A stretch of DNA of 64,000 bases, from NCBI GenBank assembly GCA_948567375.1, contig OX419758.1, forward strand, positions 129,001 to 193,000, written 5' to 3'. How positions within the stretch are numbered: the stretch's first letter is position 1; every line of letters starts with the position of its first letter. The stretch is from Lunularia cruciata. Its lineage: Eukaryota > Streptophyta > Marchantiopsida > Lunulariales > Lunulariaceae. Of this stretch, positions 3,431-60,443 are shown piece after piece. Made by a program: the position numbers and the translations under genes. The notes under the pieces were generated by a model. It saw only the letters and a program-made list of their open reading frames with translations, was not told the origin of the DNA and made no database searches.

Positions 3431-3479
3431 CTAGATCTTTAGTATTGATGTAAGGATGTCAATCCAGAAATAGCAAAGT

Positions 3480-5530: not shown

Positions 5531-5559
5531 ATTGAATTTTGGATATGTATGCAAAGAAT

Positions 5560-38774: not shown

Positions 38775-39441
38775 TGTCATGCGTATATACATCGCTACAC
38801 AACATACATCGTTGTCAACATCATACACTATAGAAGCACAACTCACACATAAGTCATACATAAACTCTAAAGTGCCACAATAATCAGATTGCTTACCACT
38901 CTCAACTCAACTCAACTCAACTCAGATCAGTACTTGATCTGTCACTCTATAAACTTCCAACAACTAGGCACTGATTACAGTCAAGCCACACCCACTTAAG
39001 CATAGAGAATCAAGGTGATGCTCACTGGCCTCTGTCCACCATAGCTAGGAACTCGAAGGCTCAACATCAGAGAAGTGAGCTCTCTAGAGCTCACTTCAAA
39101 ACTATACGCCCCTGGACTTGAGCTAGCACTGAAACCCTAACGGTCCCGCTGACGGCACACTCGACGGTGCAAACGGTGTAAAGTGACGGTGGGCCCCACC
39201 GTGAAGTCAATACCCCAAACACAAAATCTGACCGTCAGAAAGTAGTCCTTGAGAAACTGCTGAAATAACTCTAACTACTATCATTGGAACTCCAGTGTCC
39301 GAGCATCTAGATGCGGAACTACAAATGGCGTGATAGCTGTCATTCGTATATACATTACTACACAACATACATTGCTATTAACATCATACACTATAGAAGC
39401 ACAACTCACACATAAGTCATACATAGACTCTAAAGTGCCAC
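38775..39441 (-). repeat. Family M 3' terminal repeat, rearranged
   Basis: About 450 bp (38882-39335) match the start of the 5' LTR (61917-62364), but the following 1.1 kb of that LTR is missing. Instead a segment of about 105 bp ('tgtcatgcgtatatac...agtgccacaat') lies at 38775-38881, and a second copy lies at 39338-39441, next to the internal region. 'gct' separates the LTR piece from the second copy. A purine-rich GGAGGCAAT (minus) at about 39441-39450 may be the polypurine tract. Confidence 0.6.
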
Positions 39442-39610
39442 AATTGCCTCCTAGCTGGCGGTTAGGTCCCTCTAACTCCAGATAGCCATCTACTCTAAGT
39501 ATATGGTATACCCTCTAATGGGCAAAGATCAAGAGGCCGTGTGCTATGGAGCCCCATCGTTAGTTGCCTATCTGCAATCTATACCATATAAAGAATGAAC
39601 TAGCTATAGG

Positions 39611-39943
39611 TCAAGTACATCTAGGACATAACCACTGTCCCTGAGGAACCACCGTGAGGGGAGGAGTCATACATGCCATATGCCATCTTCTCAAACAGCT
39701 ATCACACACTAACATAGTAGCTGCTCCACCAGAAGAGCCACATAACATACACCTCAAGCCTGCACATACAAGTGCTAAGCTTGGGTCCATAGTACCATCA
39801 ATGTTTGGGAGGTGGCATGGCGCACAATTGTGCACATGATCCTTCCAAACAACACCATCACGTCCGTCCAACACAAGGACTCCAGATGGCAAAACCTCGC
39901 GCACTCTCAAGATAGTGCAGCTTGTAGAAACATCAAGTGTCAT
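39611..39943 (-). pseudogene. Integrase C-terminus fused to PHD finger
   Basis: A 110-codon open segment at the 3' end of the M pol frame. Residues about 10-48 resemble the small beta domain that ends Ty3 integrases (ILRVREVLPSGVLVLDGRDG, then KDHVHNCAPCHLP). Residues 65-109 (39617-39751) are a canonical Cys4-His-Cys3 PHD finger: C65-x2-C68, C80-x2-C83, W87-H88-x2-C91, W104-x-C106-x2-C109. All eight ligands are present. PHD fingers typically bind histone H3 tails, so a role in targeting integration or marking chromatin is inferred, not shown. No chromodomain is seen, although many Ty3 elements have one here. Marked pseudogene only because the upstream integrase frame is broken. Confidence 0.85.
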
Positions 39944-39949
39944 TGGTGC

Positions 39950-41230
39950 TGTCTGTTGTAGATATACATAGTCACCTAGATGAAATTGATGGACCGAGGG
40001 TCTATAACCTCCTCCTCAAATGGTAGCATAGTGTAAAGTATCTCTATGCTAAGCAATTGCCAAGTTCTCAAAGGCCATTGGCATCACTCTCCAAAAGATC
40101 TCTGCCCGTTGAGAACATGCGCTCATCCATACATCGGGGTCATCCAAGTCCAAAACTACAGTAGCATCTCAACAAATGGCTGTAGGTAAATCTGAATCTT
40201 GTCCATAGAGTAGAAAGTATAGAGAGAAAGATGCTAAGGAGGCTTGCTGGCTGAACTGATAGCTTATGGCCAACCAAGGTAATTGGAGATCCCAATCTCC
40301 CAAGTGGCCTCTCTGCAAACCATACTTTTGCAATCCTCTCTTCACCGTCTGAACCACTCTCTCTGCTAAGCCATCTGCCTCAGGGTGATCTCGGGATGTC
40401 GTACAATGATCAATCAAAGCCTTGTCACACAAGACTTGAAATTGCCCCTAGGACTATGTACCTTGATCAGTCAAAACCTCAGCTGGTGCACCAAAAATGA
40501 CTAAGAACTCGATCCAGGAACGAGTAAGCTGTCCCTTCACTAGACTTGTCAAGAAGTGCCACCAACTCAATCCACTTGGAGAAGTGGTCCACCATCACCA
40601 AAACACACTGATGATGTCTCACAGTCAGCGGTAAAGGTCCGGCAAAGTCCAAACTCCAACGGTAACCCAATCCCATGATAGGTAATGGGTGTAACTGTGA
40701 TGTAAGAGCATTGAATGATGCTCTAACTTGGTCACAAACCACACATCTGGCAACAAACTGTTGTACCTCGGTCTGCATACCGCACCACCAATAATGACTC
40801 TGAAGTAAGCTATACGTACGCTTTACTCCAAAATGTCCTAGCTCCTCATGAGCATGACGGACCAATTGTGGTCTCTGAGATGGAAGTGGTACTACTCACA
40901 CTCTACCATCCTCCCATACATGCAAAAGGTGTCTACCCTCCAATCTGAACCGTCTGGCTCACTGAAGAACACGGTCTCTCTCCTTGGTCCCAATTGTGCC
41001 ATCCACAACACTTGTGTGAAGAGAGTCCATCACTAAGACATCATCATGAATGTCTCGCTGAACTGTACCAATATCCTCACTCTCTGGATATGTGACCTCA
41101 ATAACTCCTCTTGTATGCGCTGAGAGAGAAACCACCAAAGCCTCTACAAATATACACAAAAAGGCCAATGCATGCCAACCTGGCACCATCTCCTCATCTG
41201 TCTCACCATGCCAATGTGCTCTAGTCTGAT
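39950..41230 (-). pseudogene. Family M integrase
   Basis: The zinc-binding H-x5-H/C-x2-C domain is visible at 40700-40865 (VRHAHEELGHFG...ARCVVCDQVRASF). The catalytic core follows with SLDFAGPLP (first Asp), then a frame change near 40470. Next comes an HPEADGLAERVVQTVKRGLQ segment (40169-40432) carrying the catalytic Glu. The frame 40959-41189 lies between RNase H and integrase. Stops near 40165, 40065 and 40025 and at least one frameshift inactivate it. In live elements this enzyme inserts the cDNA into chromatin. Confidence 0.8.
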
Positions 41231-41249: not shown

Positions 41250-42700
41250 GTTTCTACTCAACCCATCTGCATCACGGTTCACCACTCCAGGTCTGTGAAC
41301 AACCGTGAAATCATACTCCTATAAAATTAGAGCCCATTGTGCAAGCTTCCCTGAAAGCTTGTCGGACTCCATCAACCACTTCAGCGGCTGATGATTAGTG
41401 ATGAGAGTGAAGGGGTTACCAAATAGGTAACATCAGAAATGTGCTACTACCCAAACTGCTACCAAGCACTCTCCCTCATATGAACTATACTTTGCCTCCG
41501 CTGAATTGTTGGAGCGACTAGCATAGGCCACCACAAACTCCTTCTCCTCATTATCATGTTGGATGAACACCACTCCAAGCCCCAACATACTCCAATCAGT
41601 TTGAACCTGGAATGGTTGTCCCTTGATCGGTCTCCTCAAAATAGGAGCAGATGTCAACCTCTCCTTGAGCTCTACAAAAGCTCTCTCCTGCTCATCTCCC
41701 CAACACCACTCATGTGTAACCTTGGTCAGCTTTGTCAAGGCCTTGGCAATGGCACTAAATCCTCTAACATAGTGGCGATAGAAGTTTGCCAGCCGAAGGA
41801 ATGCTCGCACTCTGCTCACATCCGTAGGCCAAGGAATATGTGCAATAGCCTCCACCTTGGTCTGCTGAACACCAAGTCCTCCAGGATAGATAGTGTGACC
41901 CAAATACTCAACATGCTCATGGAAGAACCTACACTTCCCAGGATGTAATTTGAGTCCATGAGATCTCAATCTCTCAAACACCTCCAACAACTGTCTCTCA
42001 TGCTCCTCCACAGTAGAGCTATAAACCAAAATGTCATCAATATAGCACCGAGCAAAATCCAATCCAGCTAGGATCCTATCCATGACCCTCTGGAACTCAG
42101 CAAGAGCATTCTTCAACCCAAATGGTAAGAACCTCCACTGATATAACACATCCTTGCCGTGAGGATCAATAGCCCAAAATGATGTCTTGGACTTATCCTC
42201 TTCCCTGATTGGCAATTGATGATATCCCGCTTGAAGATCCAAAGTACTGAAGATTTTTGCATGCCCAATCGTATCAAAAATCTCCTCTAGTGTAGGCATG
42301 GCATACCGATCAGCCCTGGTCTATTGGTTGATAGGACGGTAATCTCCACATATCTGCCTATCTGTATAGTTGCCATGCATATCCTTCTTGGCTGGCATCA
42401 TTGTCGCTGATGCATACTTTCCATGTGAAATCTCCACCAAACTAGCCTCAAAAAGGTCACTACTTCGGCTCTGAATCAATGTCCTCTCCATATCACTATA
42501 TCGATAAGGACGTAAAAAAACTGGTGTGTTAGCTCAATCCATATACTAGGTCTCTTCAGAGCACCCAAATCCTTCATATTGAAGGCAAAACAACTCGTGT
42601 GACTCCTCAAGAACCTTCAAACCCTCCGTCTTTCCTCTCCAGTAAGCTTGGGTCCAAGATCTGGCTCCCAAGTATCCTCTGTAACTGTAGTAGGAGTGGA
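41250..42700 (-). pseudogene. Family M reverse transcriptase / RNase H
   Basis: The long open part 41433-42299 covers RT from MPTLEEIFDTIGHAKIFSTL through KTSFWAIDPHG, FLPFGLKNAL and the catalytic CYIDDILVYS (Asp-Asp). It continues to VEYLGHTIYPGGLGV, the connection domain FLRLANFYRHYVRGFS, and RNase H (VQTDWSMLGLGVVF, YASRSNNSAEAKYSSYEGECLA-like). The N-terminal RT part (42300-42700) continues in the same direction with stops. This is a Ty3-type RT. The RNase H end between 41250 and 41430 is out of frame. Confidence 0.88.
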
Positions 42701-43069
42701 AGACGTATTGATTGACTGCTACACTGGGCCCTTGGGAGCAATAGTGTCATGCTCCCGACCACTAGAGGTCCCAACCTCTATGTGAAAAACTCCCTCCACT
42801 CTAGCTGCAAGCTCCACATGTCCTCTGGCTGCATCCCATGTAGACCAAGGGTGTAATCCAAGTAGCCCACGCTCACCTGGATGGACTCCAACAAGACCAC
42901 TCTCCCTAGTAGCTACTGGATGTGTCCCAAGAATACCATGTCCACTTGGTCCATCGCCCCCAGCATGTGCCTGAATCGTCTCGATAGGCACAAGGCTCAC
43001 AAGTGTTCAAGTGGTGATGCCTATCAAGCGCATCCTACACTGCTCTACCAAGCCAAGGCTCACAATCTA
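42701..43069 (-). pseudogene. Linker between methyltransferase and RT in family M
   Basis: A 93-codon frame at 42719-43000 (IETIQAHAGGDGPSGHGILGTHPVATRESGL...) is rich in Gly, His and Pro and has no known domain. It connects the methyltransferase C-terminus to RT in the M polyprotein and is probably a spacer. Confidence 0.45.
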
Positions 43070-43289
43070 GGTCAAACAGTTCAGGTCCATATCTTGACCT
43101 AACACCTGACACCTGGATGCCTCTGACACTACTGGAACATCAGTAATATCGGTGCAAAAACCCATTGCCCGCTCTCTCTCATCAGCGTTGGGCTCCACCA
43201 ACTACTATAATTGTGAGTCCCAAACAAGTCCAGGTCCTCCCTCTTGAAAAGCATGAGAGCCTAGGAAACTCATGAGTGTGGAAAATGCA
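43070..43289 (-). pseudogene. DNA methyltransferase C-terminal part (motifs IX-X), displaced
   Basis: Read from the target duplication downwards, the frame that leaves the N-terminal fragment at 56086 continues here as FSTLMSFLGSHAFQEGG, then two adjacent TAG stops (43202-43207). After them comes VEPNADERERAMGF, matching C5-methyltransferase motif IX, and EASRCQVLGQDMDLN, matching motif X. The layout resembles the end of DNMT3-type catalytic domains (ER.MGF..D.TDV...S..R..LLG). It is separated from the rest of its gene by the 12.8 kb nested L element. This shows both that the insertion point was inside the methyltransferase and that the domain was complete before. Confidence 0.85.
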
Positions 43290-46212
43290 TGTGAGAACTC
43301 GGCAAATATCACTTTTGCGGTAATCGGGTAAGTAAAGTTTGTTCCCGCAGAGATACTACCCAGAATTGGTCAAATACAAAGACAAAAGTCACAATTGTAG
43401 TTCTTCTTGATTGCTTCTTTGATCTCTCAGGTAGAAACTACACCCAGAAGAGAGTAACAAGCTCACAATCTTGACAACTTGTCACAAATACTCACACACA
43501 TAATCACAACATAGCAAATTCTGTCCAAACAACTCTTGATTGTGATGATTCAGATTCTCACGAAGATGGCACTTCACTGCAAAGACTGATTTTGCCTCAG
43601 AATTGTGTTCCACCCCTCCACTGAAGGCACAACTTTCTTGATCAAAATTACTTCACATCAACTTCGTGCTGCACTCACCAATGCAAAATACTACCAACCC
43701 TACAATTCCTCTCAGATTTGTCAAGGCATTGCTCCGATGCACTTCACTCAGGATCAAACACACAGAATGAAGATCAAGGCTGCAGATTCCAACATCCACA
43801 GACACACTGACTTTCTCTTTGGAATTCTCCACACACTCACAAACACAAACACAAAATTGACAATTGGAATTAAGCTTAAGCGACGAGTACTAAGAACAAC
43901 ACTTTGCTTTATCTATCTTCAGGCATACTGTGTACTCTGTAACTCAGCACTTTTGACTAGCTCTCGTAATTGTTCTTCTTCCTCTTGCCTGGCTGCTAAC
44001 TCCCTCTGCCATGCTTGATCTTTTGTCATTGCACTCTTCTTCAAACTATCCACCTCTTGCTCCATTACGATGGTCATCGCCTTCAAATGAACATTCTTGA
44101 TATGCACATCACTCACTTCTTCCTTCATCTTATTGAGCCACATCGTTTGTTCCTTGAATTCTCCGGCTTGCCTTTGCAATTCCTTCTCCTTCTTGGTGCA
44201 GCTTCCTTGTAGCAGGGTCAGTTTTTTCTTCACCAAGCATTCCTCCCTCCGAATTTCTTCCACTTCCGTGCTTCTTTGGACTTGTTGTTCTTGCAGCTCT
44301 TTCACTTCACTCACCAGATACTTCACCATCTGCAATTCGTTCATCCCCTTCCTGTGATCTTGGGGAATTACTCTTTGATGCTCCTTCAATAGTTCTAGCA
44401 ATGGTGTTACCACCTTTGTCAGGTAGGATATCCCGCTGAAGTGCTCTTCCTTGTCATCGCCATCTTTGTCTGGAGTCTTCTTTTCCGTCATTGGCTCCTT
44501 CATCTGAAGTTGCAATCTTTGTATCTTTATCGTGTCATCACTTTCTTCGTCTTGGCCTCTCGAACTCGGCCCCGCGGGATTCTCTGCTTCTTCTTCTACT
44601 CTTGACTTGTTTAATACCATTGTTTGACAAGCCTCACTTATTGCTGCCGATTGTTGGACCTCTAGCTCTCCATCGCTTTTGCTCCCAAACTCCTCACTTT
44701 TCAAGGGGAGCTCCTCTTCTTCCGAGTCCTCTTCTTGCGACTCAGTCTCCTCGCTAGACTCTGATCCCGATGATGCCTCTTTTATGATCTTCGCCATTTT
44801 CAACATCAGCCATTGAGTCTTCCTTTGCATGGGAGGCAACCTTGCTTCTTTGGTTTTGTTTCTCTTCTTCATCTTTGGACTGGTAATGTCTTTGACTTTC
44901 CACTATCCTGTCCTTGCAAAGTATTCGTCATTTGCTCAAAGATGCAGCATATACTCGCACTCCTCATCGTCTACTTCTCGTCGCAAATCGGGATGCATGT
45001 GAGACACCATACAATGACGCTCGTCTTTGGATAGTAAATTCAGCCCAAAGCAGAAGTGAGCTGCAAATGGTGCAAAATAATGTGGTGGCAAGCCCGTTCT
45101 CCAATTCACCACCATCTACCTTGTTCGATGGTGAAAGCACTTCGCCCAATTCATTGGAACTCCTGCAAACATCTGATGGAAAAAGATGGCCTGCTGCATG
45201 TTCACGTAGGTAGTTTGTTCTGGCTTGAACATGGCCATCATTGCCCCCATGATACTTCTTTGGATCGGGTCCCGGTAGGACTCCACCTTGTAGCCATTCG
45301 TGGTTCTTGGAGCAAAGAACAAATTTTGGATTTCCGCCGTCTCTTTTGCAACATCACACTTCCGATAGAAGGTGATCCCCGTTGGTTCTCCTTCTTCTCT
45401 TCCCAATACCAACTTCCAATCTGACTCAGTCCATCGGGTTGGATTGCCTCTCTTCCTTTCCACCTCGGGACCCTCCTCACAATTACTAACAGCAATCTCT
45501 ACGATCACTCCCGGGAAACTGAAATTCTAGTTCCATGCTAAAAATGTGATACGAAGTCTAATCAAGACTTCGATTCTAGCCACTACATCTACCCTTCGAA
45601 TTGCAAAACCTCTCATCGCCAGCGTGTTGGCCACCTTCTTCGCCATGATTTGTTCTCTTGTTCTACGATGTTGGAAAATAAGACCCTCTCCTAGATGAGA
45701 CACTCTAACTCCCTCAGGGTTCCAGAAAATCTCACTCTCGATGGGCTTCCGGACACGCATTACTACAGGACGACTACTCAAAGGAATTGGAAATTTACTC
45801 AGAGTATTCAACTTCCCCCTGCATAGTCACAATTTTATATTGCCCCAAATTGCAGTCATTCTTTAGTTGATTTTGTCTGTGAATTTCTCTCTTCTGTGTG
45901 CACTCCCGATCACTGTCAAGACATGCTTCTTCTGCTCCCGCCATTTCTTGAAATGTAATTTCTTGCCATGTACAGAAGTTGTTAAATGGTCTTCGTCTTT
46001 CCTGCATCTTCCAACCCAAAGACGGTGATCTTTGGACTTTTTCCGGCATACTCCTCTTCTGAGTACCTCCATCATCGGATCCGATGTCATCTTCTTTGGA
46101 TTTCCTCCAAATTTACTTCCGTCCATTCTTTGTCCGCAATTCAACTTTTAGTGCTTACTTCGTCTCTTAAACCCTACTAACCATAGGAAAACAAAAAAAT
46201 GTGGGTACCACA
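43290..46212 (-). repeat. 3' LTR of the nested L element
   Basis: 2,923 bp, colinear with 52384-56085 except for a deletion of about 780 bp. The sequence jumps from 'tttatctatcttcag' at 43921 directly into 'gcatactgtgtact', which in the other LTR lies at about 53796. The terminus at 43290 is TGTGAGAACTCGG, with two substitutions relative to TGTGACAACCCAG. Confidence 0.9.
43919..46144 (-). pseudogene. LTR-resident coiled-coil ORF (3' LTR copy)
   Basis: Same ORF as 53187-56018. The N-terminal basic piece (45863-46144), a globular block with VDVVARIEVLIRLRITFLAWN (45527-45811), the block WKLVLGREEGEPTGITFYRKCDVAKETAEIQNLFFAPR (in 45116-45508) and FFHQMFAGVPMNWAKCFHH are all readable. They are followed by a 317-codon acidic and coiled-coil stretch (43919-44872) with a Glu/Ser-rich linker and long heptads. 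The C-terminal part is removed by the LTR deletion. A few stops or frameshifts separate blocks. It lies downstream of integrase in transcription order, where env-like ORFs sit in Athila elements. Function unknown. Confidence 0.75.
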
Positions 46213-46225
46213 TACCCCCTCCCTC
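46213..46225 (-). promoter_or_regulatory. Polypurine tract of the nested L element
   Basis: On the minus strand GAGGGAGGGGGTA directly precedes the 3' LTR start TGTGGTACCC. Position and composition fit the plus-strand DNA primer of LTR elements. Confidence 0.85.
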
Positions 46226-47534
46226 AAATGTGAGTGTCCCCGTGAACACCAACAACCGGGTTTTTATACAAAGTCGGGTGTTGGGTCCAATATTTTTTAA
46301 CCCTCCAACCATTGACACAAGTTGCAAAAGGATTGCCATCTAGGTCTGCGAGTTGAATGGAAATATTATCATAGATGTGCATCACACGATACGGTCTCAT
46401 CCACCTCAGATGTAATTTTCCTAGAAAAAATAGGCGGTGATTATCATATAATAATACCAAGTCGCCTTCTTGAACAGTCACAAGTTTGATTCTTTTATCG
46501 TGCAAGACTTTCCGTTGTTCTTGAATTTCCTTTGTAGTTTGCATTGCATCGTCCCTTTTCTCTTCCAACCACATCAGTTGATGGATCCAAAGATCTTGAC
46601 TTTCTTCCTCCTACAAACGTTCTTCACAAAGTATTCTATATGTCGAGACTTCAAACTCTACTGGTAAAATGGGATGCAATCCGTATGTTAGGAAATAAGG
46701 AGTTTGCTTGGTAGTAATCTTTTCAGTTGTTCGATATGCCCACAACACTGCAGGTAACTTCATATCCCAATCATAGGCATAGTTGACTGTCACCTTATTC
46801 AAAATTTTACACAACAATCCATTGGCTTTCTCCGTGAGTCCATTTGCTTTTGGGTTGTAAGGCGTGGTCTTCCGATGCTTAATTTGGAAGTATTTGGTTA
46901 ATGCCTCCACCATTGAGTTCAAAAAATGAGTTCCCCGATCACTGACCAATTCCAAAGGACACCCATAACGGGAAATGATGTTTCAGAAGAAAAACTCTGC
47001 TACTGTCTCTGCATCATCTCTTCGTGTTGCCTCTGCTTCCACCATCTTGGTGGCATAATTGGTACATACAAAGATGTACCTCTTCCTTGTGACACGGGTT
47101 ACTGGTTGAATAGGTCCCACAAAATCAATACCCCATTTCTCAAATGGGGCCAGAGGCTAAATTGGTTTCAAAGGCCATTGTGAAGTCGCCATCGGTTTCC
47201 CTATTCTTTGACAGGCATCACAACTCCGGATATGGGCATGAGTATCTTTATACATTGTAGGCCACCAATACCCTACCGAAAGAATTTTCTTTACCGTATT
47301 TTTTAGGGCATAGTGTCCTCCCGATGCTTCCAAGTGCAAGGATTCGATGACTCCTCCTACTTCGTACGCTTCAAGGCATCTCCGAAGTACTTCATCTTTG
47401 CCCATTTTAAACAAAATGTTGTGTTTCAATTGGTACGGTCCCATTTTCCGAAGAAAGACTGCTCTTTGTTCCGGGTCCAGCCCCTCAAGACAATGGTATG
47501 TATGCAAATAATGATATTCTGCCGCATACCGCAT
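46224..47534 (-). pseudogene. Family L integrase
   Basis: The zinc-binding domain reads LHLEASGGHYALKNT...SCDACQRIGKP (47157-47534). The catalytic core has WGIDFVGPIQ, LVSDRGTHF and a PKANGLTEKANGLL segment, giving the D, D and E residues. The C-terminal domain (46224-46574) reads VQEGDLVLLYDNHRLFFLGKLHLRWMRPYRV and ends almost at the polypurine tract. Stops near 47156, 46985 and 46610 break it. No chromodomain or PHD follows, unlike family M. This supports the non-chromovirus (Athila/Tat) placement. Confidence 0.88.
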
Positions 47535-47537
47535 ACT

Positions 47538-49201
47538 TCAAACAACCATTAAATGATATAGCTCTTCATCAGGAAACCGATCATTGATTTCCAAATCTTG
47601 GTCTTGAGTTTCTAACCTGGATAAGAAGTCCGGATTTGAATGCGAAGCTCTCTTCCTTACTTGTAAAGTGTATGTGAATTCTTGTAACAACAAGATCCAT
47701 CGTGCAATTTGCCCGGACAAATCTGCCTTCTTGACCAAGTGTTGCAGTGCATAATGGTCTACATAGAAGACGAATTCGTATCCTAACAGGTAGTGGAAAA
47801 ATTTCTTGCAGGCATACACCATCCCGAGTGCTTCTCTTTCAGTCATTGAATAGTTTTTTTTAGAAACTGAAAGTTGTCGGCTGGCATAATACACCGGGTA
47901 GTCCTTTTTCTTCTCATCCTTCTGACTTAAGCCAACTCCAATGGCCATGGACAAAGTGTCCACATATACATGAAAAGGGACGTCCCAATTTGGGGCCCAC
48001 ATGACTGGTGCTTCAACCAGTTTCTTCTTCAACACCTGGAAAGCTTCTTCTTGAGTTGCTTCCCACAGATAATCTTCGGATTTCTTCAGAAGCTTGGTAA
48101 GGGGTGCAACAAGCACTGCATAATTTGACACAAAGCGTTTGTAGTATCCAACGTGTCCTAAGAAGGCTCTCAGCTCCTGGAGGTTCTTCGGGGATTCCAA
48201 AGCTGCAATTACTTTAACCTTCTCGACATCCACTTCAATACCTCGGCTTGACACCCAATGCCCCAGAAGAATTCCTTCCTTCATTGCAAAGAAGCATTCT
48301 CCGGGTGTAATGACAAGCCAGCAAAACGACACCTTTCAAAAGTTTGGCGAAGGTAATCTATATGTACATCTTTTTGCCCAAACACACAAAAATCATCAAT
48401 GAAGACTTCCACAAATTTACGCAAGAAATCTTTGAATATTGAGTTCATCATCTGTTGGAAAGTAGCAGGAGCATTACACAACCCAAAGGGCATTTGATTG
48501 TAAGCAAAAGTGCCCCAATCAGTCGTGAATGTGGTTTTGTCCTTGTCTTCTTCTCAAATGGATACTTGATTGTATCCTGAAAATCCATCAAGAAAACTAT
48601 AGCATGGATGACCAGCTACTTGGTCCAGAATTGTATCTGTAAATGGTAAAGGATGATGGTCCTTTCTGTTGACTACATTTAATTTGCAAAAATCTTGGCA
48701 CACTCAAATTTTCCCGGTCTTCTTCTTTGGAACGATGACAATAGGTGAAACCCACTCATTGCTTAGAACAAGGAAAATTATTCTGGCCCCTAAGTACTTA
48801 TCAATTTTTTCTTTTACCAAGAGGGAGTACTTCGGGTTCAGGCGGTATTGTCTTTGCCAAACCGGAACTGCACCTTCGACCAGATCAATCCGGTGCTCGC
48901 CAAATTCTCATGGAATTCTCGGCATTTGGTCAATAGACCAGGCAAATACATCCTAGAACTCTATAAACAAGGCAATGTATCCTGCCAACTCCTCGGCGGT
49001 CACTATCTTTGAAATCTTTAAAATCTTTTCTTCAGTCAAGACCACATCTTGACAGTCATTGGGGTTAATGACACCTTCTACGTGACTTACTCGACTCAAT
49101 CCGAGGCGTACTGCCGTCAAACGCCCTTCCTCCAAGTCTTGTTCACCCAAGGCAATGTCGTATGGGTCTTTTTTGTTGACCTCTACCTCATAGCATTCCA
49201 A
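47538..49201 (-). pseudogene. Family L reverse transcriptase / RNase H
   Basis: RT begins after the acidic segment at 48953-49201. Visible are ...PIVIVPKKKTGKI, FLDGFSGYNQV, MPFGLCNAPATFQQMMNSIF and the active site VEVFIDDFCVFG (Phe replaces Tyr of YxDD, as in Athila). After a frame change near 48300, GHWVSSRGIEVDVEKVKVI and RAFLGHVGYYKRFVSNY follow. RNase H has FHVYVDTLSMAIGVGLSQ, YYASRQLSVSKKNYSMTEREAL and FVFYVDHYALQHLV. At least three stops lie in the N-terminal half (e.g. near 48905, 48705 and 48557). The copy is inactive but recently so. Confidence 0.9.
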
Positions 49202-49299
49202 ATAATTTACTTGGACATTGGCTTTGGAGTCCTTGGAAGACGAAGATGAAGAATCTTTGGATTCATCCTAGTCTTTTGACGAAGTAGTTTCTCCAAGAT

Positions 49300-49700
49300 G
49301 AGGAACCTTCGTCTAACTTACAGTCACCAGCTTTTGTTCCTTAGAAGAAATGTCTTTAAATTGTAATTTTTGCTGGTGCCAATCCACCATAACTTGGGCA
49401 CTGTACAACCAGGGTCTCCTGATCAAGAGAGGGTAGCCAGTTTTGGTTACTGGTCGTAACACAATGTAGTTTAATTTGAAGGGCACCCCTCCTATAATCG
49501 TGGTGATATTTGAAAGCATGCCCAAGGGCAGTCTCTTGGTTTGATCCGCAAACTTAAGTATTCGGGGTGTTGGTTCAAATGTTGTGTACCCCAGTCAATG
49601 TGCAGTGTCTTCTGTCATGACATTTACACCCGACCCCTGAATCAATGGGTATGGATGTAATCATACAGCCTACTATCTCCACATCCACCTCAGAAGATCC
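49300..49700 (-). pseudogene. Family L aspartic protease
   Basis: IPIDSGSGVNVMTEDTA at about 49610-49655 contains the retropepsin active-site triad DSG. It is followed by LPLGMLSNITTIIGGVPFKLNYIVLRP (49313-49525) and GYPLLIRRPWLYSAQVMVDW, the usual ending of plant Ty3 proteases. Stops interrupt the region between the pieces. Confidence 0.8.
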
Positions 49701-49805
49701 TAAATATTCCTATTCAATACAATAAATTGTGGGCAAGTCTTTCTTGGTCATCGCCCTTACTTTCTTGAGGGCTGAACTTAGCTGCTTTTTATAAAGCTTA
49801 TTGTC

Positions 49806-52295
49806 CTACCATAATTGTTTAAACGTGACATTCACGCTTGTAGACGCCATATCTGCCACAATATCATACTGTGGAACTCTCCCCAATTTCACTTGATTCG
49901 TCTTTGGCTTTGGTTCTAAATTGTTTGCCTGTTCAAAGTGAACTTCGGGATGCTTGAGGATAGTAACCGGAGTGCGTAGGTTCTTGACCCAATGATCATT
50001 GGGTTGACCAACTTCAGCTTGGATCAGGTCTTTTACTTCAGACCTGATATCCGCTGGAAATACAGGGGGTTGCGTCTTTGCATTTGCCTCCACACTAATC
50101 TCCCGCGTGCGTAGTACTTCTTCCTTAACTTCTTTTTGCTTTGCTTTTGCTTTAGCTTTTGCTAGGACCTTTTCCTCCTTTGCAAAAAGGATAGCTTTTG
50201 GTCGCAGTCTTTTAATTTTCCATGAGGAAGAAGACGCAATACTTCCTTTTTTGGAAGCTCGATTCTTCCTCTCCGTGCAAGTTTCTACCTTCAAAATTTT
50301 GAGGTCCGGCCACTCCCCTTCTGAAGCTAGACTCCCTTCTTGAGGCCTCTCTTCCTCAAGTGTAATACAATTGACATTAATGTCCCCCTTCGCCTGGAGC
50401 GCCGCACGCTCGGCGGGAGTCTGAACATACTTGATAGGAGACTTCGGATTGGGTGGTTGCGGGCACTAGTTTCCTGTGTGCCTTGATCCCTTACAATTCC
50501 CACAAAGAGGTACGTACCCAATTTGTTGTCTTGGCTCCGGAAAATTTGGAGACCAATGTCCCATCGAGCCACAATTGTAACAAGCACCCGATGCAACATT
50601 TTGAGGTTTATTTTGACCACCGATTGGGGGTCTTTGTGGAGGAGCAGTAGGATTGTACTCCCGTGGTCCAAACTTGGGACCTTGATATGATGGGCTTGAT
50701 GGAGGCTATGTGTCTTGGGTTTGGTATACCGTCTCTTCTTCTTCACCTTGATCCCATCCAGGAACTCAATCTATCTGTTGCACCGGAAATGCCATGTGTG
50801 TTAAACACTCCGTATTAGCGTGGCCGGATTTACCACACACAGTGCACCATACATTTGGTTGCCCAAATGACAAGGGTTTTCTTCAGTCCTTTTCCCCAAT
50901 CATCTGGATCTTAAAATCTGCAAACTCTTTAATAAGAGTTTCTAACTTTTGATCTGCCTTAGATACATTCTTTACTGGAGGTGTTACTGGCTTCTTTCCT
51001 CTACGTCTTTGTATTTTTCTCGGCTTGGGTTCTTTGTCGGATCCCAAAGAAGAACTAGAAGAAGTGGAGGATTCCTCTGAAGAAGGAGAAGTACTTCGTG
51101 AAGCTCTTTGTCTTGGCTTTTTGCCTTTCTTCTCACAATTTCTTTGGTTACTGGACGAGTTGGAATGAGCCACCTCATATCGGGCAACATGTTTGAGGAC
51201 TTTGTCTAGAGAAGTTACATTCCTCTCCCTGGCAACGATTTGAATCTTTGATGAAAGCCCGCCGAGAAACCAGGTAATGGCTTGGGCATTGGAATAACCC
51301 ACCACCCCGGATTGCTTTGGGACTCGGTTCAATAAGGCCATGAACCTCTCAGAGTAATCTCTTAATTTTTCCTTCTTTCCTCGATCCAAATCATTAAGTG
51401 CCACAAAGACACTTGTATCATAATCCACTTCCCAAAATTGTTCCAGGAAGCCATTCCGTAAGTCTGCCTAGTCTGCTGGTGTGAATCCCTTTTGCGTTAC
51501 ATGAGTATACTAGCTCCGAGCCTTCTTTCGGAGCAGACTTGGAAAAATCCGTAGTCAATCCGCAGAGTCATGTTCCTTGTTGGCAAAGGAAATGACTTCA
51601 AATTCCTCAATGAATTCGTCAGGATCTTTGTCTTGCTTGGTACCTTTATACTTCTGATAAGCATGTCGGGTTACGGGTAACGAAGACATCGTTTGGTGCG
51701 GCGGATTTGGTTGTGGTAAGTTTGAACTTATGGGAACCGAAGAGCTACTTGGTATGGACGCCGTGTTGTCTGCCCACGGGTTCCAATTTGTCAGGTTCAA
51801 ATTGGGGTCTTCTTTGACAATTTCTTCTTCTCTGGTTGTGTTGACTTCAACCCAATCAAAAGTAAGAGGTTCCACAACTTCAATCTGGTCTTTGAACCTT
51901 CTTCAGGATAACCGGGGAATTGTTCGTACCAGATGCTGACACTCTTCTTCCATAAGTGTTCGTGCTGTCTTTTCTCAAACAAACTTCTTAATGAAATCGA
52001 CTTCCTTTACAGCTTTAGGGGAAGTTGGTGTACTGGGTCGTAGCGCGTATGTTTGCCCGCTTGAGTCTTTCTTTTTCTTGGAAGACGGGGATGAAAAGTA
52101 GCCTTGTCAACCTCCTTCACGTCTCTTTTGGTCAAGTTCGCGCAAGGCTGCTTGCACTTTGTGAAGGAGTTGAAAGTCCAACTCTTCTTTTTTGATTTCA
52201 TCCGGAGGAGATGGAGCTTTCAAACGTTCATCTTCTTCACGCTGCAATGCTCGTCTTCGAGCTCTCTCTTCCCGTTGTTCTCTCGATGCAGACAT
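49806..52295 (-). pseudogene. Family L gag (capsid, zinc knuckles and basic linker)
   Basis: Starts near 52295 with a charged helix (SASREQREERARRRALQREE), then a basic region. The capsid-like part is at 51555-51875 and 50883-51428 (YSERFMALLNRVPKQ...ITWFLGGLSSKIQIVARE), with a Ser-rich linker. A canonical zinc knuckle CTVCGKSGHANTEC lies near 50790-50830. Two more knuckle-like motifs (CYNCGSMGHWSPNF, lacking the last Cys, and CGNCKGSRHTGN) lie near 50500-50590. The stretch 49806-50294 is a Lys/Ala-rich linker leading to the protease. Multiple stops. In live elements this forms the particle that packages RNA. Confidence 0.75.
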
Positions 52296-52357
52296 TCATA
52301 TTGCACATACACCCAGTCTCAAATTTGGCTTCATATTCTTCCACTTCCGCGATTTGT

Positions 52358-52376
52358 ATCCCCGGCAGCGGTGCCA
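52358..52376 (-). promoter_or_regulatory. Primer-binding site, tRNA-Asp type, family L
   Basis: On the minus strand TGGCACCGCTGCCGGGGAT lies 7 nt inside the 5' LTR end. It closely matches the TGGCGCCGTTGCCGGGGA type typical of Athila/Tat elements, differing at two positions. Confidence 0.85.
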
Positions 52377-52383
52377 AAAATCA

Positions 52384-55300
52384 TGTGACAACCCAGCAAA
52401 TATCACTTTTGCGGTAATCGGGTAAGTAAAGTTTGTTCCCACAGGGATACTACCCAGAATTGGTCAAATACAAAGACAAAAGTCACAATCGCAGTTCTTC
52501 TTGATTGCTTCTTAATCTCTCAGGTAGAAACTACACCCAGAAGAGAGTAACAAGCTCACAATCTTGACAACTTGTCACGAATACACATACACGTAATCAC
52601 AACATAGCAAATTCTATCCAAACAACTCTTGATTGTGATGATTCAGATTCTCCCGAAGACGGCACTTCACTGCAAAGACCGATTTTGCCTCAGAATTGTG
52701 TTCCACCCCTCCACTGAAGGCACAACTTTCTTGATCAAAATTGCTTCACATCAACTTCGTGCTGCACTCACCAATGCAGAATACTACCAACACTACAATT
52801 CCTCTCAGATTGGTCAAGGCATTGCTCCAATGCACTTCACTCAGGATCAAACACACAGGATGAAGATCAAGGCTACAGATTCCAACATCCACAGACACAC
52901 TAACTTGCTCTTTGGAATTCTCCACACACTCACAAACACAAACACAAAATTGACAATCGGAATTAAGCTTAAGCGACGAGTACTAAGAACAACACTTTGC
53001 TTTATCTATCTTCAGACATATGAATACTGAATAACATCATACTGCGATTGCTCCAATTAAATACTAAAGCAAACGGCAGACTTGCCTACCTAGGCACGAC
53101 TTCCTAACATCCTTTCCTACTTGCAGATCCTAAGTGATAGTCTAGCTCTTCATATCTGCCTCTTCCTATCTCAAAATCGACACTTATCCCGATCCAATGA
53201 CTACCTCATCATCGGCTTCCAAACCCGATGATCTTGTTACTATTTTGCCTTCTTTGGGTATAGATGATTCTACCAAATCCTTCACTAATTCTATGACTTC
53301 TACACTACAATCTACAATTGAGCTTTGGTTTACTCCATCTACTGCTTTATCTCCTAACCCATGTTTCTCTAAAGTGTCAATTATCAAGTCCAATGACACT
53401 TGTACTCCTACTTCTGTAACATCGGGTCTTTTCTCCACTGTCACACTATTTTGAACCTTCTCTAATTCCAAATTGACTAAATCCAATCTAAGACTAACAT
53501 TGTTCTCTACCTCTAACATTTACCTATCTACACGCTCTCTCAATCGAATCAACAACGTGTTCATATCCACATCTTTAGCTTTTCTCTTCCGAGTTTCCTG
53601 CACAAGCAACTTCAACTCATGTAGGCAGGCTTCCTCCAATCTCCCTTCAGCCTCCGTGCTTAAGATTGCTCTCAACTTCCCCGCAACTTCTCCTACTGAT
53701 TCCGACTCATATCCTTGAGAGCGCTCTACCTTCAGTTCTTCACGATACATCTTCAGCTTGTCTTCGTACTCCACAACAAGCATTTTCTTCTCCTTTGCAT
53801 ACTGTGTACTTTGTAACTAAGCACTTCTGACTAGCTCTTGTAATTGTTCTTCTTCCTCTTGCCTGGCTGCTAACTCCCTCTGCCATGCTTGATCTTTTGT
53901 CGCTGCACTCTTCTTCAAACAATCCAACTCCTACTCCATTATCATGGTCATCGCCTTCAAATGAACATTCTTGATACGCACATCACTCACTTCTTCCTTC
54001 ATCTTATTGAGCCACATCGTTTGTTCCTTGAATTCTCTGGCTTGCCTTTGCAATTCCTTCTCCTTCTCGGTGCAGCTTCCTTGTAGCAGGGTCAGCGTTT
54101 TCTTCACCAAGCATTACTCCCTCCGAAGTTCTTCCACTTCCGTGCTTCTTCGGACTTGTTTTTCCTGCAGCTCCTTCACTTCACTCACCAGATACTTCAC
54201 CATCTGCAATTTGTTCATCCCCTTCCTGTGATCTTGGGGAATTACTCTTTGATGCTCCTTCAATAGTTCTAGCAATGGTGTTACCACCTTTCTCAGGTAG
54301 GATATCCCGCTGAAGTGCTCTTCCTTGTCATTGCCATCTTTGTCTGGAGTCTTCTTTTCCGTCATCGGCTCCTTCATCTGAAGTTGCAATCTTCGTATCT
54401 TTATCGTGTTAGCACTTTCTTTGTCTTGGCCTCTTGAACTCGGCCCCGCGGGATTCTTTGCTTCTTCTTCTACTCTTGACTTGTTTAATACCATCGTTTG
54501 ACAAGCCTCACTTATTGCTGCCAATTGCCGGACCTCTGGTTCTCCATCGCTTTCGCTCCCAGACTCCTCACTTTTCAAGGTGAGCTCCTCTTCTTCTGAG
54601 TCCTCTTCTTGCGACTTAGTCTCCTTGCCAGACTCCAATCCCAATGATGCCTCTTTTATGATCTTTGCCGTTTTCAACATCAGCCGTCGAGTCTTCCTTT
54701 GCATGGGAGGCAACCTTGCTTCTTCGGTTTTGCTGCGCTTCTTCATCTTTGGATTGGTAATGTCTTTGACTTTCCACTATCCAGTCCTTGCAAAGTATTT
54801 GTCATTTGCTCAAAGATGCAGCATATACCGGCGCTCCTCATCATCTGCTTCCCATCGCAAATTGGGATGCATGTGAGACACCATACAATGACGCTCGTCT
54901 TTGGATAGTAAATTCAGCCCGAAGTAGAAGTGAGCTATGAATGGTGCAAAATAATGTGGTGGTGAGCCCATTCTCCAATTCACCACCATCTGCCTCGTTT
55001 GGTGGTGAAAGCACTTTGTCCAATTCATTGGAACTCCTGCAAACATCTGATGGAAAAAGATGGCCTGCTGCATGTTCACGTAGGTAGTTTGTTCTGGCTT
55101 GAACATGGCCATCATCGCCCCCACGATACTTCTTCGGATCAGGTCCCGGTAGGACTCCACCTTGTAGCCATTTGTGGTTCTTGGAGTAAAGAACAAATTT
55201 TGGATTTCTGCCGTCTCTTCTTCAACATCACACTTCCCATAGAAGGTGATCCCCGTTGGTTCTCATGCTTCTCTTCCCAATACCAACTTCCAATCCGACT

Positions 55301-56085
55301 TAGTCCATCGAGCCGGACTGCCTCTCTTCCCTTCCACCTCGGGACCCTCATCACAATTATTAGCAGCAATCTCTGCCATCACTCCTGGGAAATTGAAATT
55401 CCAGTTCCATGCTAAAAATGTAATACAAAGTCTAATCAAGACTTCGATTCTAGCCACTACATCTACCCTTCGAATTGCAAAACCTCTCACCGGCAGCGCA
55501 TTCACCACCTTCTTTGCCATGATTTGTTCTCTTGTTCTACGATGTTGGAAAATTAGATCCTCTCCTAGTTGAGACACTCTAACTCCCTCAGGGTTCCAGA
55601 AAATCTCACTCTCGATGGGCTTCTGGACACGCATTACTGTAGGACGACTACTCAAAGGAATTGGAAATTTACTCAAAGTATTCAACTTCCCCCTGCACAG
55701 TCGCAATTTTATATTGCCCCAAATCGCAATCATTCTTCAGTCAATTTTGTTTGTGAATTTCTCTCTTTTGCGTGCACTCCTGGTCACTGTCAAGACATGC
55801 TTCTTCTGCCCCCGCCGTTTCTTGAAATGTACTTTCTTGCCACGTACAAAAGTTGTTAAATGGTCTTCGTCTTTTTTGTGTCTTCCAACCCAAAGATGGT
55901 GATCTTTGGACTTTTTCCGGTGTACTCTTCTTCCGAGTACCTCCATCATCGGATCCAATGTCATCTTCTTCGGATTTCCTCCAAAGTTACTTTCGTCCAT
56001 TCTTTGTCCGCAATTCAACTTTTAGTGCTTACTTCGTCTCTTAAACCCTACTAACCATAGAAAAACAAAAAATGTGGGTACCACA
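52384..56085 (-). repeat. 5' LTR of the nested L element
   Basis: 3,702 bp from TGTGACAACCCAGC (low end) to GTGGGTACCACA (high end), TG...CA on both strands. This is the longest, most complete LTR of the family in the window. It holds the full LTR-resident ORF in its first roughly 2.9 kb and an AT-rich non-coding 3' part. The promoter was not located with confidence. Confidence 0.93.
53187..56018 (-). pseudogene. LTR-resident coiled-coil ORF, most complete copy (about 940 codons)
   Basis: Begins at MNCGQRMDESNFGG about 67 bp inside the LTR. It continues in essentially one path to IVTRSSGLEADDEVVIGSG at 53187, interrupted by scattered single stops and frame changes. Layout: basic N-terminus; a putative globular domain of about 250 residues (VDVVARIEVLIRLCITFLAWN, KVESYRDLIRRSIVGAMMAMF, FFHQMFAGVPMNWTKCFHH, LNLLSKDERHCMVSHMHPN); an acidic Ser/Glu linker; long coiled coil with heptads (QMVKYLVSEVKELQEKQVRR, KEKELQRQAREFKEQ); and a conserved C-terminal block (VGVQVSLDLIIDTLEKHGLGDKAVD). 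No gag, pol, env or transposase motif. Transcribed in the same sense as gag-pol. It could be derived from the extra ORF of Athila/Tat elements absorbed into an expanded LTR; that is inference. Confidence 0.78.
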
Positions 56086-57321
56086 ATGCGTCTCTAGGCT
56101 GTCCAACTAGGTTCACCACTGCCATAGGTGACCTATCAGCCACTACCACTGTCTGAGACTGATGACCAATATCCAAGATATCATCAACAAGGATGTGGTC
56201 AAGTCGCCAAATCCCATCATAAGCGCATTGTAGAACCTCTCTGGGTAAGAGGTTCGTCCACCAACAACGAAGACGATGAGCCCGTGATCCCACTCTGGCT
56301 GCATCTAACAATACAGCAGGTCCCATCCAAGAATGGACCTGATGTGTACTCACCACCACTCTGGTGCAAGAATCACCCATCAAAGGAACGTTCTCCAAAA
56401 GGTAAGTTGGAGAAACGGACTGATGAACCTGGAGATGTCGTAGTATCCGTAACATATCCCAAAACACACCAGAATGAGGATCTTGAAGACCCAATCCTCT
56501 AACAGCACGTGTATGTCCTTGACATGGCCATCCAAAAATCACCAAGTGAATAGGCCCATGTCTCTCTAGGTCATGCACCCCCAGTAAGGAAATGTCTCAT
56601 GGTAGGGCCTTTTGGTAACCTCTGACTATTGACATTGGTAATAACTCCGGATACCAATAGGCCAAGTGTGCCACATGATGTAGAAAGACTCTCCTAGCAG
56701 TCTCATCTCTCTCTACATTACTTGGATACCCGCCTATAACACCGTAGCTAGTTTGGTGCTGATCCCACCAAACAACTCCAATAGGCATATCCCCTCTACT
56801 GGATACTGCCAAGCAATGAGTGTGGTATCTAGAGGTGTCAAAGCAATCGCCTCTGGAGGCTCATCCTCACACTCATCTCCTGATGGTACGAAGGCTCCAC
56901 TCCAAGCCTGCTGCACCAACTGATCTGCATGCTGCTGCAATGCCTCCTCTAAACTCCACAATGGAACATCCAAGGTGGATAGAACAATCCCACTTGTACT
57001 CCATAGACGAGTGATCTCCTTTGGTACTGGAGTATCCTCTACATGGGCGTTCCCCTCCAACAAGTCACCAGGCCAAGTAACAACACCGCTGAAAGCTAAA
57101 ACTAATGCTGCCATGGTCCTGGACTGTAGTGAGCCAAGACTGCCACTACTGAAGCGTATTGGTAGGCGACATACCCGTCCCTCACCAAACTGCCAACCAG
57201 GTCTATAAGAGGCTATCTCCTCCCAATAGTCAATGCTGAAACCCATGGGGTATAACACTGCTCCCCCAACTAGCACATCATATGACTCAGCTATTGTCGC
57301 AATAGCCTGAGCTCTCACCAC
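56086..57321 (-). pseudogene. Cytosine-5 DNA methyltransferase (DNMT3-like), N-terminal and catalytic part
   Basis: 57321 to about 56830 encodes a region of about 165 residues of unknown fold (VLVGGAVLYPMGFSIDYWEE...). Motif I follows: CLLELFGGISTKLATVL (about 56735-56790). After a frameshift, motif II appears as VERDETARRV. A TGA stop lies at 56597-56599. Next comes motif IV with the catalytic cysteine, IHLVIFGWPCQGHTRA, then GLQDPHSGVFWDMLRILR and motif VI TYLLENVPLM. Motif VIII-like ARVGSRAHRLRCWWTNLL closes the fragment. It catalyses 5-methylcytosine formation in known relatives. The PCQ and ENV residues are intact. The gene continues after the nested element at 43289. It sits between protease and RT in one pol frame. 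DNMT3/DRM-like by motif style; a phylogeny would be needed to place it. Confidence 0.9.
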
Positions 57322-57398
57322 CGAGCTATCAGTCAGATGACCAGGCTGAACTTGGACAACAAGCTCCCCACGTGTGATGTACTATGTCGAACCACCAC

Positions 57399-57965
57399 CT
57401 AGAGATGTCTGGATCTGAAATTGGTCTTCCGTAACTCCAGACCGATAACTGCAGCCTTTCCCAACATAAGGGGTTGCGCACCAGAGTCTAACAAGACTCT
57501 CTGTGGTGTATAGACCTTCCTTGAAGGTCCCACCAAATGAAAAATCCCCCTCTGGTTATCCAATAGGACAACACTAGGTGTGAACCGTGCTCTCTCAAAG
57601 GCCAATCTAGCTGGCAACTCCTCCAATCTAGCCGTTGCTGCCTGCCATAAACCATTGGTCGCTAAATGGATCCTATGCTCCTCAACCAAGTTAGCTCCAC
57701 TACCAACCACCTCTGCTCTAGCAGTAGGAACTGCACCCTCCCTACTCTCACACAATGTGGCAGCCAACCGGAACACTAGGGCTAGGTCAACTCCCAATGT
57801 AAACATGTCACTGGCTGAAAACAAAGGATGCCGCATAATCAGTTGAGCCGCCCCCAACATCATGCTAGACTCATTCTGTGTAGTAGTAGGTGGCTGACTA
57901 GCAGGTAGTCCATCATGTACTCCATCACCACCTACCACACTAGCACTAGGACGTCTAGGAACCAT
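57399..57965 (-). pseudogene. Family M retropepsin and preceding linker
   Basis: A 188-codon open frame. The N-terminal two thirds (MVPRRPSASVVGGDGVHDG...) includes helical sequence AAQLIMRHPLFSASDMFTLG. Near the C-terminus VYTPQRVLLDSGAQPLMLGKAAVIGLEL carries the DSGA active site with flanking hydrophobic residues, as in Ty3 aspartic proteases. It is upstream of the methyltransferase in transcription order. The frame itself is open, but the polyprotein around it is broken. Confidence 0.82.
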
Positions 57966-58016
57966 GGATGTCGTCTATAATGCCTCAGATAGTGTGAAAG
58001 ACTGGAGAAGTCTGAC

Positions 58017-59351: not shown

Positions 59352-60443
59352 GTGGTGCACTCTACTGCACTCTAGAAGAAGTCACAGCCATGGATGAGGT
59401 CTCCCTACCAAATCCAGATGTCACCACTCTCTCCTCCACCATATTGAGCTCAATACGCTCAGCCAAACCAAAGACTATTGCCAAAGTGGGCAAAGTAGCT
59501 TGCAACAACGTAGCATCACAAACTCTACGTCACAACTCCCTATCCAGTATCCATACCAAAACTGGACTCCTTGGGCCTCAGTAACTCCCTGAGTGAAACT
59601 GATCAGCCACCTCATGCGAGTGTATGCCTCGCATAGGCTCTCTCCAACCTTCCGTTGGAACTTCTACAAGCTCCTCAGCTTGTCAGTCCGCACTCCCTGG
59701 TAGTTTTGCGTCAAACACAAGAAGAACTCCACCATGGGGTTAAACCCCGGTACCATAGCACCTCCTGTAGCGATACCTCCACTCGTAGTAGCACTATCTC
59801 CAGCTAGTGCACCTCCACTAGCTCCACCAACACTACTTGAGCTAGAACTCGTGGGTACAGCTGATCTACTCCTGGCCACCGAGCTTGAAGTGATGGAGAC
59901 ATAGTGTGGAGACCAATATTGTGTCCAAAACTCAACCTCCTCCAAATGAGCTCTCTTGAACTCATGGTAGTCATCCATCGACGGACCCTCTAGATGCTGA
60001 AACAACCCCTTCCATGCCATGAAAGGTGTGAACAAAGTCGGGTTCCGCATCTGCTGCAGATCACACCAGCTATCGAACTCCTAGATGAAGTCATCCAACT
60101 CAATGGTACCCACTATACTAGAGTAACACCTAGGGCCTTTGGAGACCCCATAAATCTTGTCCATGTCCCACAACAACAGTGCGGACACACCAAGTGCACT
60201 CTCAACTGAATTAGCTCTTGTGTCAAACTCCAACTCAAAGTCAATCTCTTCTCTCACTGTGACCTGAGATACAGGCTGATATCGAGCACCACTCCGAGTA
60301 AATCCACTACGTACTGCAGGGCTAACTCCTCTAGAATCCCCAAAGTGACCGCAATAGCAAACCCGAACCACCAACTGCAACCGCAAGTTGCAACAGCAAG
60401 TGCCCCACCAAGTGCCAACACCACCACGTGCCAACATCACCAA
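59352..60443 (-). pseudogene. Family M gag
   Basis: N-terminal part 60081-60330 (YQPVSQVTVREEIDFELEFDTRANS). Then the capsid-like part, 59664-60050: FDSWCDLQQMRNPTLFTPFMAWKGLFQHLEGPSMDDYHEFKRAHLEEVEFWTQ, in pieces separated by a stop at about 60079, a Ser/Gly/Ala-rich linker, and VPGFNPMVEFFLCLTQNYQGVRTDKLRSL. The FQRKVGESLCEAYTRMRWLI and GVTEAQGVQFWYG segments (about 59585-59660), after another stop, are typical of retrotransposon gag. The C-terminus is interrupted by the solo LTR. It would form the virus-like particle in an active copy. Confidence 0.78.

Follow-up and report, generated by a model that had tools for sequence, protein, structure and literature searches.

Retrotransposons that carry their own cytosine-5 DNA methyltransferase are a known kind of element. 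The literature refers in broad terms to green algae harbouring retrotransposons that encode methylases; a 2025 paper notes DNMT3s carried by retrotransposons in streptophytes and dinoflagellates (PMC12344493), and a 2019 article says that land plants, tracheophytes for example, lack transposons encoding DNA methylases (PMC6338049). The closest described system is KnitGypsy-Dnmt3, a Gypsy element of the streptophyte alga Klebsormidium nitens that has a Dnmt3 in Pol and is under purifying selection (de Mendoza 2018, PMC5890265). Here we describe a comparable element in Lunularia cruciata (Marchantiopsida), in a 64,000-nucleotide stretch of contig OX419758.1 (assembly GCA_948567375.1, positions 129,001 to 193,000; hereafter the window). 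On the minus strand, between two outer long terminal repeats (LTRs), lies a dead copy of a Ty3/Gypsy (Metaviridae) LTR retrotransposon, and between its protease and its reverse transcriptase (RT) lies what motifs, profiles and fold comparison identify as a real DNMT3-type cytosine-5 methyltransferase. The layout is gag-protease-methyltransferase, one stop in a UAG-CARYYA context, and then RT-RNase H-integrase-PHD finger; as a statement of anatomy, we regard this as nearly certain.

Similar to KnitGypsy-Dnmt3, the window element combines a Gypsy domain set with an unrearranged Dnmt3-type methyltransferase, is intronless and resides in a streptophyte host (PMC5890265). Compared by description rather than by sequence, the two also differ: KnitGypsy-Dnmt3 is described as having the domain in its Pol open reading frame (ORF) and DIRS-like repeats, whereas the window element has plain LTRs and the enzyme on the gag-protease side of a UAG. 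The main text on KnitGypsy-Dnmt3 does not contain the term PHD and the sections on it name neither a stop nor read-through, whereas the window element has a PHD finger. SymbioDIRS-Dnmt3 and SymbioLINE-Dnmt likewise hold a methyltransferase inside a retroelement, SymbioDIRS even in two domain orders, and the SymbioDIRS enzymes produce de novo CG methylation in yeast (PMC5890265). However, these are dinoflagellate DIRS or LINE elements with a tyrosine recombinase or an endonuclease instead of a DDE integrase. A first, sequence-only reading of the window had suggested that a plant-type copy of this layout may be new, which was too strong, since a Gypsy element with Dnmt3 had already been published from K. 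nitens (PMC5890265). The bryophyte members, the two domain orders described below, the PHD finger and the leaky stop are not reported in the titles and abstract openings listed, a sample with few subscription journals and no supplements. Element-borne DNMT3 is also not raised in the accessible parts of PMC6453930, PMC9033089 and PMC11105155. Given the Marchantia and Sphagnum proteins presented below, the statement of absence from land plants, as worded in PMC6338049, fails for bryophytes.

Stops and frameshifts have broken the methyltransferase of the window copy into several pieces. In the order of the element these are:

56734..57381, minus strand: stretch leading into the methyltransferase, with motif I (LLELFGGIST) at its end; recognised by identity to relatives
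56597..56860, minus strand: motif II piece (VERDETARR) in a shifted frame; relatives' profile E 0.013
56086..56596, minus strand: methyltransferase core with motifs IV (PC), VI (EN) and VIII; relatives' profile E 1.7e-37
43290..56085, minus strand: nested LTR element interrupting the methyltransferase; begins TGTGG and has long LTRs that are 93-96% identical
43205..43289, minus strand: methyltransferase resumed past the nested element (STLMSF..HAFQEGGPGLVWD); relatives' profile E 1.1e-5
43067..43201, minus strand: motifs IX (ERERAMGF) and X (LGQDMDLN); relatives' profile E 1.6e-12
42722..43006, minus strand: C-terminal tail of the gag-protease-methyltransferase frame; resembles the tails of three Marchantia proteins (36-47% over 36-39 residues)

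The profile used here was made from four relatives and run over the window pieces, four of which it matched as methyltransferase. The sequence-only reading had listed C5-methyltransferase motifs in order on the minus strand, and this order is confirmed, with motif I in 56734-57381, II in 56597-56860, IV, VI and a GSRAHR..WTNL block in 56051-56596, and IX and X in 43067-43201. Motifs I, II, IV, VI, VIII, IX and X are thus in canonical order, not rearranged as in DRM. The Pfam profile PF00145, which the same reading had proposed as a check, matches the core piece (56051-56596; E 3.1e-5) with 24 bits, above its cut-off of 22; the remaining methyltransferase pieces have no Pfam match of their own. 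Compared piece by piece with relatives, the upstream region is 47-53% identical to six Marchantia proteins and one protein labelled jgi (216-219 residues) and 33% identical to an intact relative introduced below as L038; the motif II piece is 62-67% identical over 39 residues to Marchantia and jgi proteins and 41% over 34 residues to L038; and the motif IX/X piece reaches 73-80% with five Marchantia proteins, 66% over 35 residues with a sixth, 77% with Sphagnum and with one jgi protein, and 61% with L038.

The proposal of a DNMT3-like enzyme was also upheld, as both profile and fold matches are best to DNMT3. Among solved structures, DNMT3A and DNMT3B are closest to the window core. A profile of ten sequences searched against the PDB ranks DNMT3A first (1e-17), followed by 4onj, entered as 'DNA methyltransferase' (1.6e-9), DRM2 (2e-6), HaeIII (4e-6) and HhaI (1.4e-5). 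The AlphaFold2 model of a segment of a Marchantia relative, P0021, has a predicted local distance difference test score (pLDDT) of 87.3 and a predicted template modelling score (pTM) of 0.89, and all 50 Foldseek matches listed for it are DNMT3A, 3B or 3C entries. DNMT3A and DNMT3B nevertheless share only 27-30% identity with the element enzymes and fall outside their clade. Pfam searches of six relatives and L038 gave no match to an ADD or PWWP domain.

The element around the enzyme is identified as Ty3/Gypsy by the order protease-RT-RNase H-integrase together with an RT of Ty3 type, whose closest solved structure is the RT of yeast Ty3. Its parts are:

61916..62362, minus strand: 5' LTR of the host element, paired with the 3' LTR
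59664..60080, minus strand: gag piece, 47-55% identical to the gag of five Marchantia proteins; no Pfam match of its own
57399..57974, minus strand: retropepsin-like protease piece (LLDSGAQPLMLGK); no Pfam match of its own
41319..42718, minus strand: RT and RNase H in several pieces; RVT_1 E 7.3e-29
40169..40895, minus strand: integrase (H2C2 and rve), by Pfam, relatives' profile and sequence comparison
39611..40015, minus strand: integrase C-terminal region and PHD finger; PF00628 E 5.7e-11
38881..39333, minus strand: 3' LTR of the host element, paired with the 5' LTR

The two outer LTRs are identical at 422 of 453 positions (93%), with 6 gaps, and by eye they show neither a clear tRNA match for a primer binding site nor a clear short target duplication. 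For the protease piece, identity is 33-47% with seven Marchantia proteins, 41% with a single jgi protein and 27% with L038.

A copy this damaged raises the question of whether a host DNMT3 was captured by chance in this copy alone and does nothing for the element. The frameshifts and the nested insert in the window would fit such an accident; what speaks against it is the distribution of the domain. A search with the core returned 18 proteins at E<=1e-3, of which three are named, from Sphagnum troendelagicum (66% identity), Marchantia paleacea (63%) and M. polymorpha (60%), and the Sphagnum and Marchantia relatives as a whole are 57-66% identical to the window in the core. When long proteins were targeted in a further search, 19 matches were obtained (14 named M. 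polymorpha), and a search with the methyltransferase of one more distant relative, P0034, gave 229 matches, 120 of which were listed. From the matches listed we assembled 156 relatives, namely P0001-P0033 and the 123 more distant P0034-P0156. We call the latter the green-algal type, as a group label: only four of the 123 are assigned to named green algae (P0051 to Monoraphidium neglectum; P0076, P0148 and P0151 to Haematococcus lacustris) and one lies in a bacterial metagenome-assembled genome (MAG). The name of K. nitens is not among the matches listed, most of which bear no organism.

The intact relative, L038 (CADCWO010000201.1), has 9285 bases with a 127-base end repeat, as would be expected from the assembly of a collapsed or circular repeat. 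It is 44% identical to the window core. L038 is filed under a cyanobacterial MAG (a Synechococcales bin). P0043 is likewise found in a bacterial MAG (a Minisyncoccia bin), and both are probably plant- or alga-type retroelements misplaced by bin contamination.

Among these relatives, which were found via the methyltransferase, the five Marchantia proteins with RT or RNase H and L038 have the domain upstream of RT/RNase H; sister elements lacking the domain at this position, which the sequence-only reading had named as a refutation, do not appear among them. The catalytic residues are also conserved. Across 129 near-complete domains (6 of P0001-P0033 and all 123 of P0034-P0156), the motif IV cysteine is present in 128, with one gap, and both the EN of motif VI and the motif VIII arginine in 129 of 129. 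Given that the domain recurs in L038, in Sphagnum and Marchantia and in another 123 database proteins, that its catalytic residues are kept, and that 112 element enzymes fall in one clade without DNMT3A (support 0.971), we reject a single-copy chance capture as very improbable.

As a separate observation on motif IV, the catalytic cysteine is preceded by glutamate (GWEC instead of GWPC) in 79 of the 123 green-algal-type enzymes and by proline in 20, the other 24 having another residue or leaving the pattern unmatched. To our knowledge, a GWEC motif IV is unusual among C5 methyltransferases.

The sequence-only reading also placed the methyltransferase and RT in what was apparently one pol polyprotein. 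The same frame indeed runs across the junction, but between the two lies an in-frame TAG, so that this claim holds through read-through alone. The feature is:

42713..42721, minus strand: TAG CAG TCA, a stop (TAG at 42721-42719) with CARYYA context; the same frame runs on toward RT

Beyond the TAG the window frame continues for 33 codons toward RT before decay breaks it, with 57% identity to L038 over 30 residues. L038 carries a single frame from 15 to 6635, 2207 codons counting the final stop, and its sole internal stop, TAG CAA TCA, is at the place homologous to the TAG CAG TCA of the window. Its ORF1 encodes gag, protease (a match below the Pfam cut-off, E 7.8e-4) and methyltransferase (PF00145, E 6.8e-12), and its ORF2 encodes RT, RNase H, integrase and PHD. 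Both stops, with an open frame beyond, match exactly the consensus for type I, or tobamovirus, read-through, UAG-CARYYA (PMC5382211). The element stop differs from the tobamovirus case in standing at the methyltransferase-RT junction of a retrotransposon and in being known from sequence alone. In the window, CARYYA follows 8 of the 1972 TAGs on both strands. Seven bryophyte-type proteins (P0005, P0020, P0021, P0022, P0024, P0025 and P0027) have tails of one kind, ending 80-84 residues past a common SLG.A mark that sits just beyond motif X. In the window and L038, the methyltransferase ends the gag-protease frame, ahead of a putative leaky stop.

It could also be that this stop is plain decay or a terminator, with RT made by splicing or re-initiation, as three Marchantia gene models continue into RT without it and the fifth codon after the stop in L038 ORF2 is GTG. 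We consider this unlikely, since two elements with methyltransferase pieces 41-64% identical have the stop at a homologous place, each time followed by CARYYA, and since the 2207-codon frame of L038 is otherwise open.

The relatives divide into two types by the position of the enzyme. Across the 156 proteins the order of RT, RNase H (RH), methyltransferase (MT), integrase (INT) and PHD finger is RT-RH-MT-INT-PHD in 94, MT only in 29, MT-INT-PHD in 12, RT-RH-MT-INT in 6, RH-MT-INT-PHD in 4, RT-RH-MT in 4, MT-RT-RH in 2, MT-RT in 2, and MT-RH-INT, RH-MT-INT and MT-INT in one each. Among P0034-P0156, the methyltransferase comes after RT/RNase H in all 109 proteins having RT or RH, whereas it comes before them in the five of P0001-P0033 that have either (P0019, P0023, P0028, P0030 and P0033), as in the window and L038. 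In a FastTree methyltransferase tree of 110 of the 156 proteins (100 of P0034-P0156 and ten of P0001-P0033), L038 and the window core, with DNMT3A segments and three bacterial enzymes as outgroups, the 112 element enzymes form the clade mentioned above, excluding DNMT3A. Within it, the bryophyte type, including L038 and the window, forms a clade (11 of 11, support 0.943; 0.981 in an earlier tree without DNMT3A), as does the green-algal type (101 of 101, support 0.97), into which P0018 falls. In that earlier tree, the position of the window within the bryophyte-type group is weakly supported (0.295). The two domain positions therefore correspond to two methyltransferase clades. This is a rare case of an accessory enzyme at two places of one polyprotein.

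Where the green-algal type has its enzyme, L038 has a short gap. Between RNase H and integrase, 105 green-algal-type proteins have a median of 662 residues (570-1086) containing the methyltransferase, whereas L038 has 131 residues, flanked by linkers TGAR and DVW.D; the corresponding patterns TGA(R) and D(V/I)W.D are found in 78 and 77 of the 105. Thus, either the methyltransferase moved on a shared backbone or it was captured twice. We could speculate that DNMT3 was acquired once between RNase H and integrase in the green-algal type and once between protease and RT in the bryophyte type, as the two positions coincide exactly with the two clades. The backbones, moreover, may not be exclusive sisters: in the RT tree (FastTree), two Marchantia proteins group with the window and L038 in a clade (0.836), which a fragment of the methyltransferase-free nested element joins with weak support (0.545), and this speaks weakly against exclusive kinship of both backbones. 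In the integrase tree (FastTree), the window and L038 pair with support 0.974. What makes two captures improbable is that the median identity to the opposite type (38-39% for L038 and P0021, 34% for the window core) is above the 27-30% to DNMT3A, and that the PHD finger and the linkers are common to both types; the only cellular DNMT3 in the tree on which this comparison draws is DNMT3A. It is tempting, if still tentative, to see here a green-plant-wide Ty3 lineage with an ancestral, conserved methyltransferase and an H3-tail-reading PHD finger, in which the methyltransferase would have moved within the polyprotein and the bryophyte-type branch would package it and premark its own complementary DNA (cDNA).

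The PHD finger is shared by both types and, like the stop and the second domain order, was not noted in the sequence-only reading. It is present in 110 of the 123 proteins P0034-P0156, and the window PHD region shows 60% identity with L038 and 41-48% with three relatives of the green-algal type. The solved PHDs nearest to it include those of CHD4, PHF12, KMT2D, KDM5, PHF21A, UHRF1 and AIRE, several of which bind histone H3 unmodified at K4; DNMT3s also read H3, by a PHD-like domain. By sequence comparison, the element PHD finger thus resembles readers of unmodified histone H3. Gypsy elements of Ectocarpus similarly have a histone-reading module behind the integrase, but it is a chromodomain or Tudor, not a PHD, and no C5 methyltransferase is mentioned in the accessible text (PMC12477816), whose authors call the Tudor-bearing brown algal Gypsy the first such element known to them. 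By eye, P0035, P0036 and P0037 have a Tudor-like segment after the PHD (YEDGD, WEDGT and YQDGH), perhaps a second chromatin reader.

Cytosine methylation is the main mark by which plant cells silence transposons. That a transposon family keeps a catalytically complete DNMT3-type enzyme, and in one branch putatively makes it at the level of the coat protein, suggests that the mark can serve the parasite. As the best explanation of the whole, we propose that a Gag-level methyltransferase marks the element's own new DNA while the PHD finger steers the integrase, and we regard this as probable; self-methylation as the function of the enzyme is, taken singly, a possibility that we put forward with some reserve. 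Most ribosomes would halt at the UAG, Gag-protease-methyltransferase would be the bulk product, and the enzyme would thus enter the particle at Gag level; a minority would read through and add RT, integrase and PHD. In the particle or in the nucleus, the enzyme would methylate cytosines of the new cDNA, and the PHD finger would direct the integrase to chromatin with unmodified H3K4. New copies could then arrive premarked and in quiet chromatin, hidden from host sensing of naked DNA and with damage to the host limited. What is observed is the anatomy, the conserved catalytic residues and the stop context in two elements; read-through, packaging, substrate and targeting are inferred, the DNA target and the PHD ligand from homology.

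The enzyme could instead target host chromatin, either altering host methylation or acting as a self-restraint of the element that spares the host. The PHD finger, a chromatin-reading module, would suit such a role, slowed retrotransposition is discussed as an option for the published elements (PMC5890265), and a variant in which the enzyme serves host defence against DNA viruses has been proposed (PMC6338049). The enzyme, however, is encoded with gag and protease and thus apart from the integrase and the PHD finger. We hold a host target to be rather unlikely, although the present evidence separates it in no way from marking of the element's own DNA.

Several points weigh against the proposal that the enzyme is made at Gag level and marks new copies. 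In the one published test of a plant-lineage member known to us, KnitGypsy-Dnmt3 expressed in yeast gave no detectable methylation, a result that its authors call inconclusive (PMC5890265). P0001, P0011 and P0026 end earlier than the 80-84-residue tail, and P0019, P0028 and P0033 continue into RT. These frame ends are predictions, some of them marked partial, judged from the proteins alone, and the read-through context is known from two DNA sequences, the window and L038. In addition, because every relative was retrieved through its methyltransferase, sister elements without the enzyme would have been missed. Marchantia, a tractable genetic model in which copies are annotated, makes it possible to test what a methyltransferase does for a transposon.

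We also considered a viral origin, which found no support. Two short profile patterns run on viral contigs gave 37 loci, with 24-47% identity in the best segment compared with 49% across almost the whole domain for L038, and a scan of viral contigs with P0005 gave none, both scans being limited.

The nested element is flanked by CGCAT (56086-56090) and TGCAT (43285-43289), a 5-base duplication with one mismatch. Its LTRs are very long, about 2.9 and 3.7 kb, and contain extended reading frames (43919-44872 and 54114-54746) that on visual inspection resemble coiled coils; further pieces lie at 37050-37187 and 37352-37499. In the host element, a 107-base direct repeat (93%) flanks the 3' LTR on both sides (38775-38881 and 39338-39444). 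Its length far exceeds a Ty3 target duplication, and a repeat search of 34000-64000 lists none next to the 5' LTR. Between that LTR and gag, the leader contains two head-to-tail copies (93%) of a 214-base unit at a spacing of 220 (61153-61586).

Elsewhere in the window, a piece on the minus strand at 27363-27887, for which a Pfam search gave no match, presumably resembles part of plant DNA polymerase lambda. A host gene piece on the plus strand at 21671-23041 has a Utp12 domain (PF04003, E 5.9e-19) and probably belongs to a ribosome-biogenesis WD protein.

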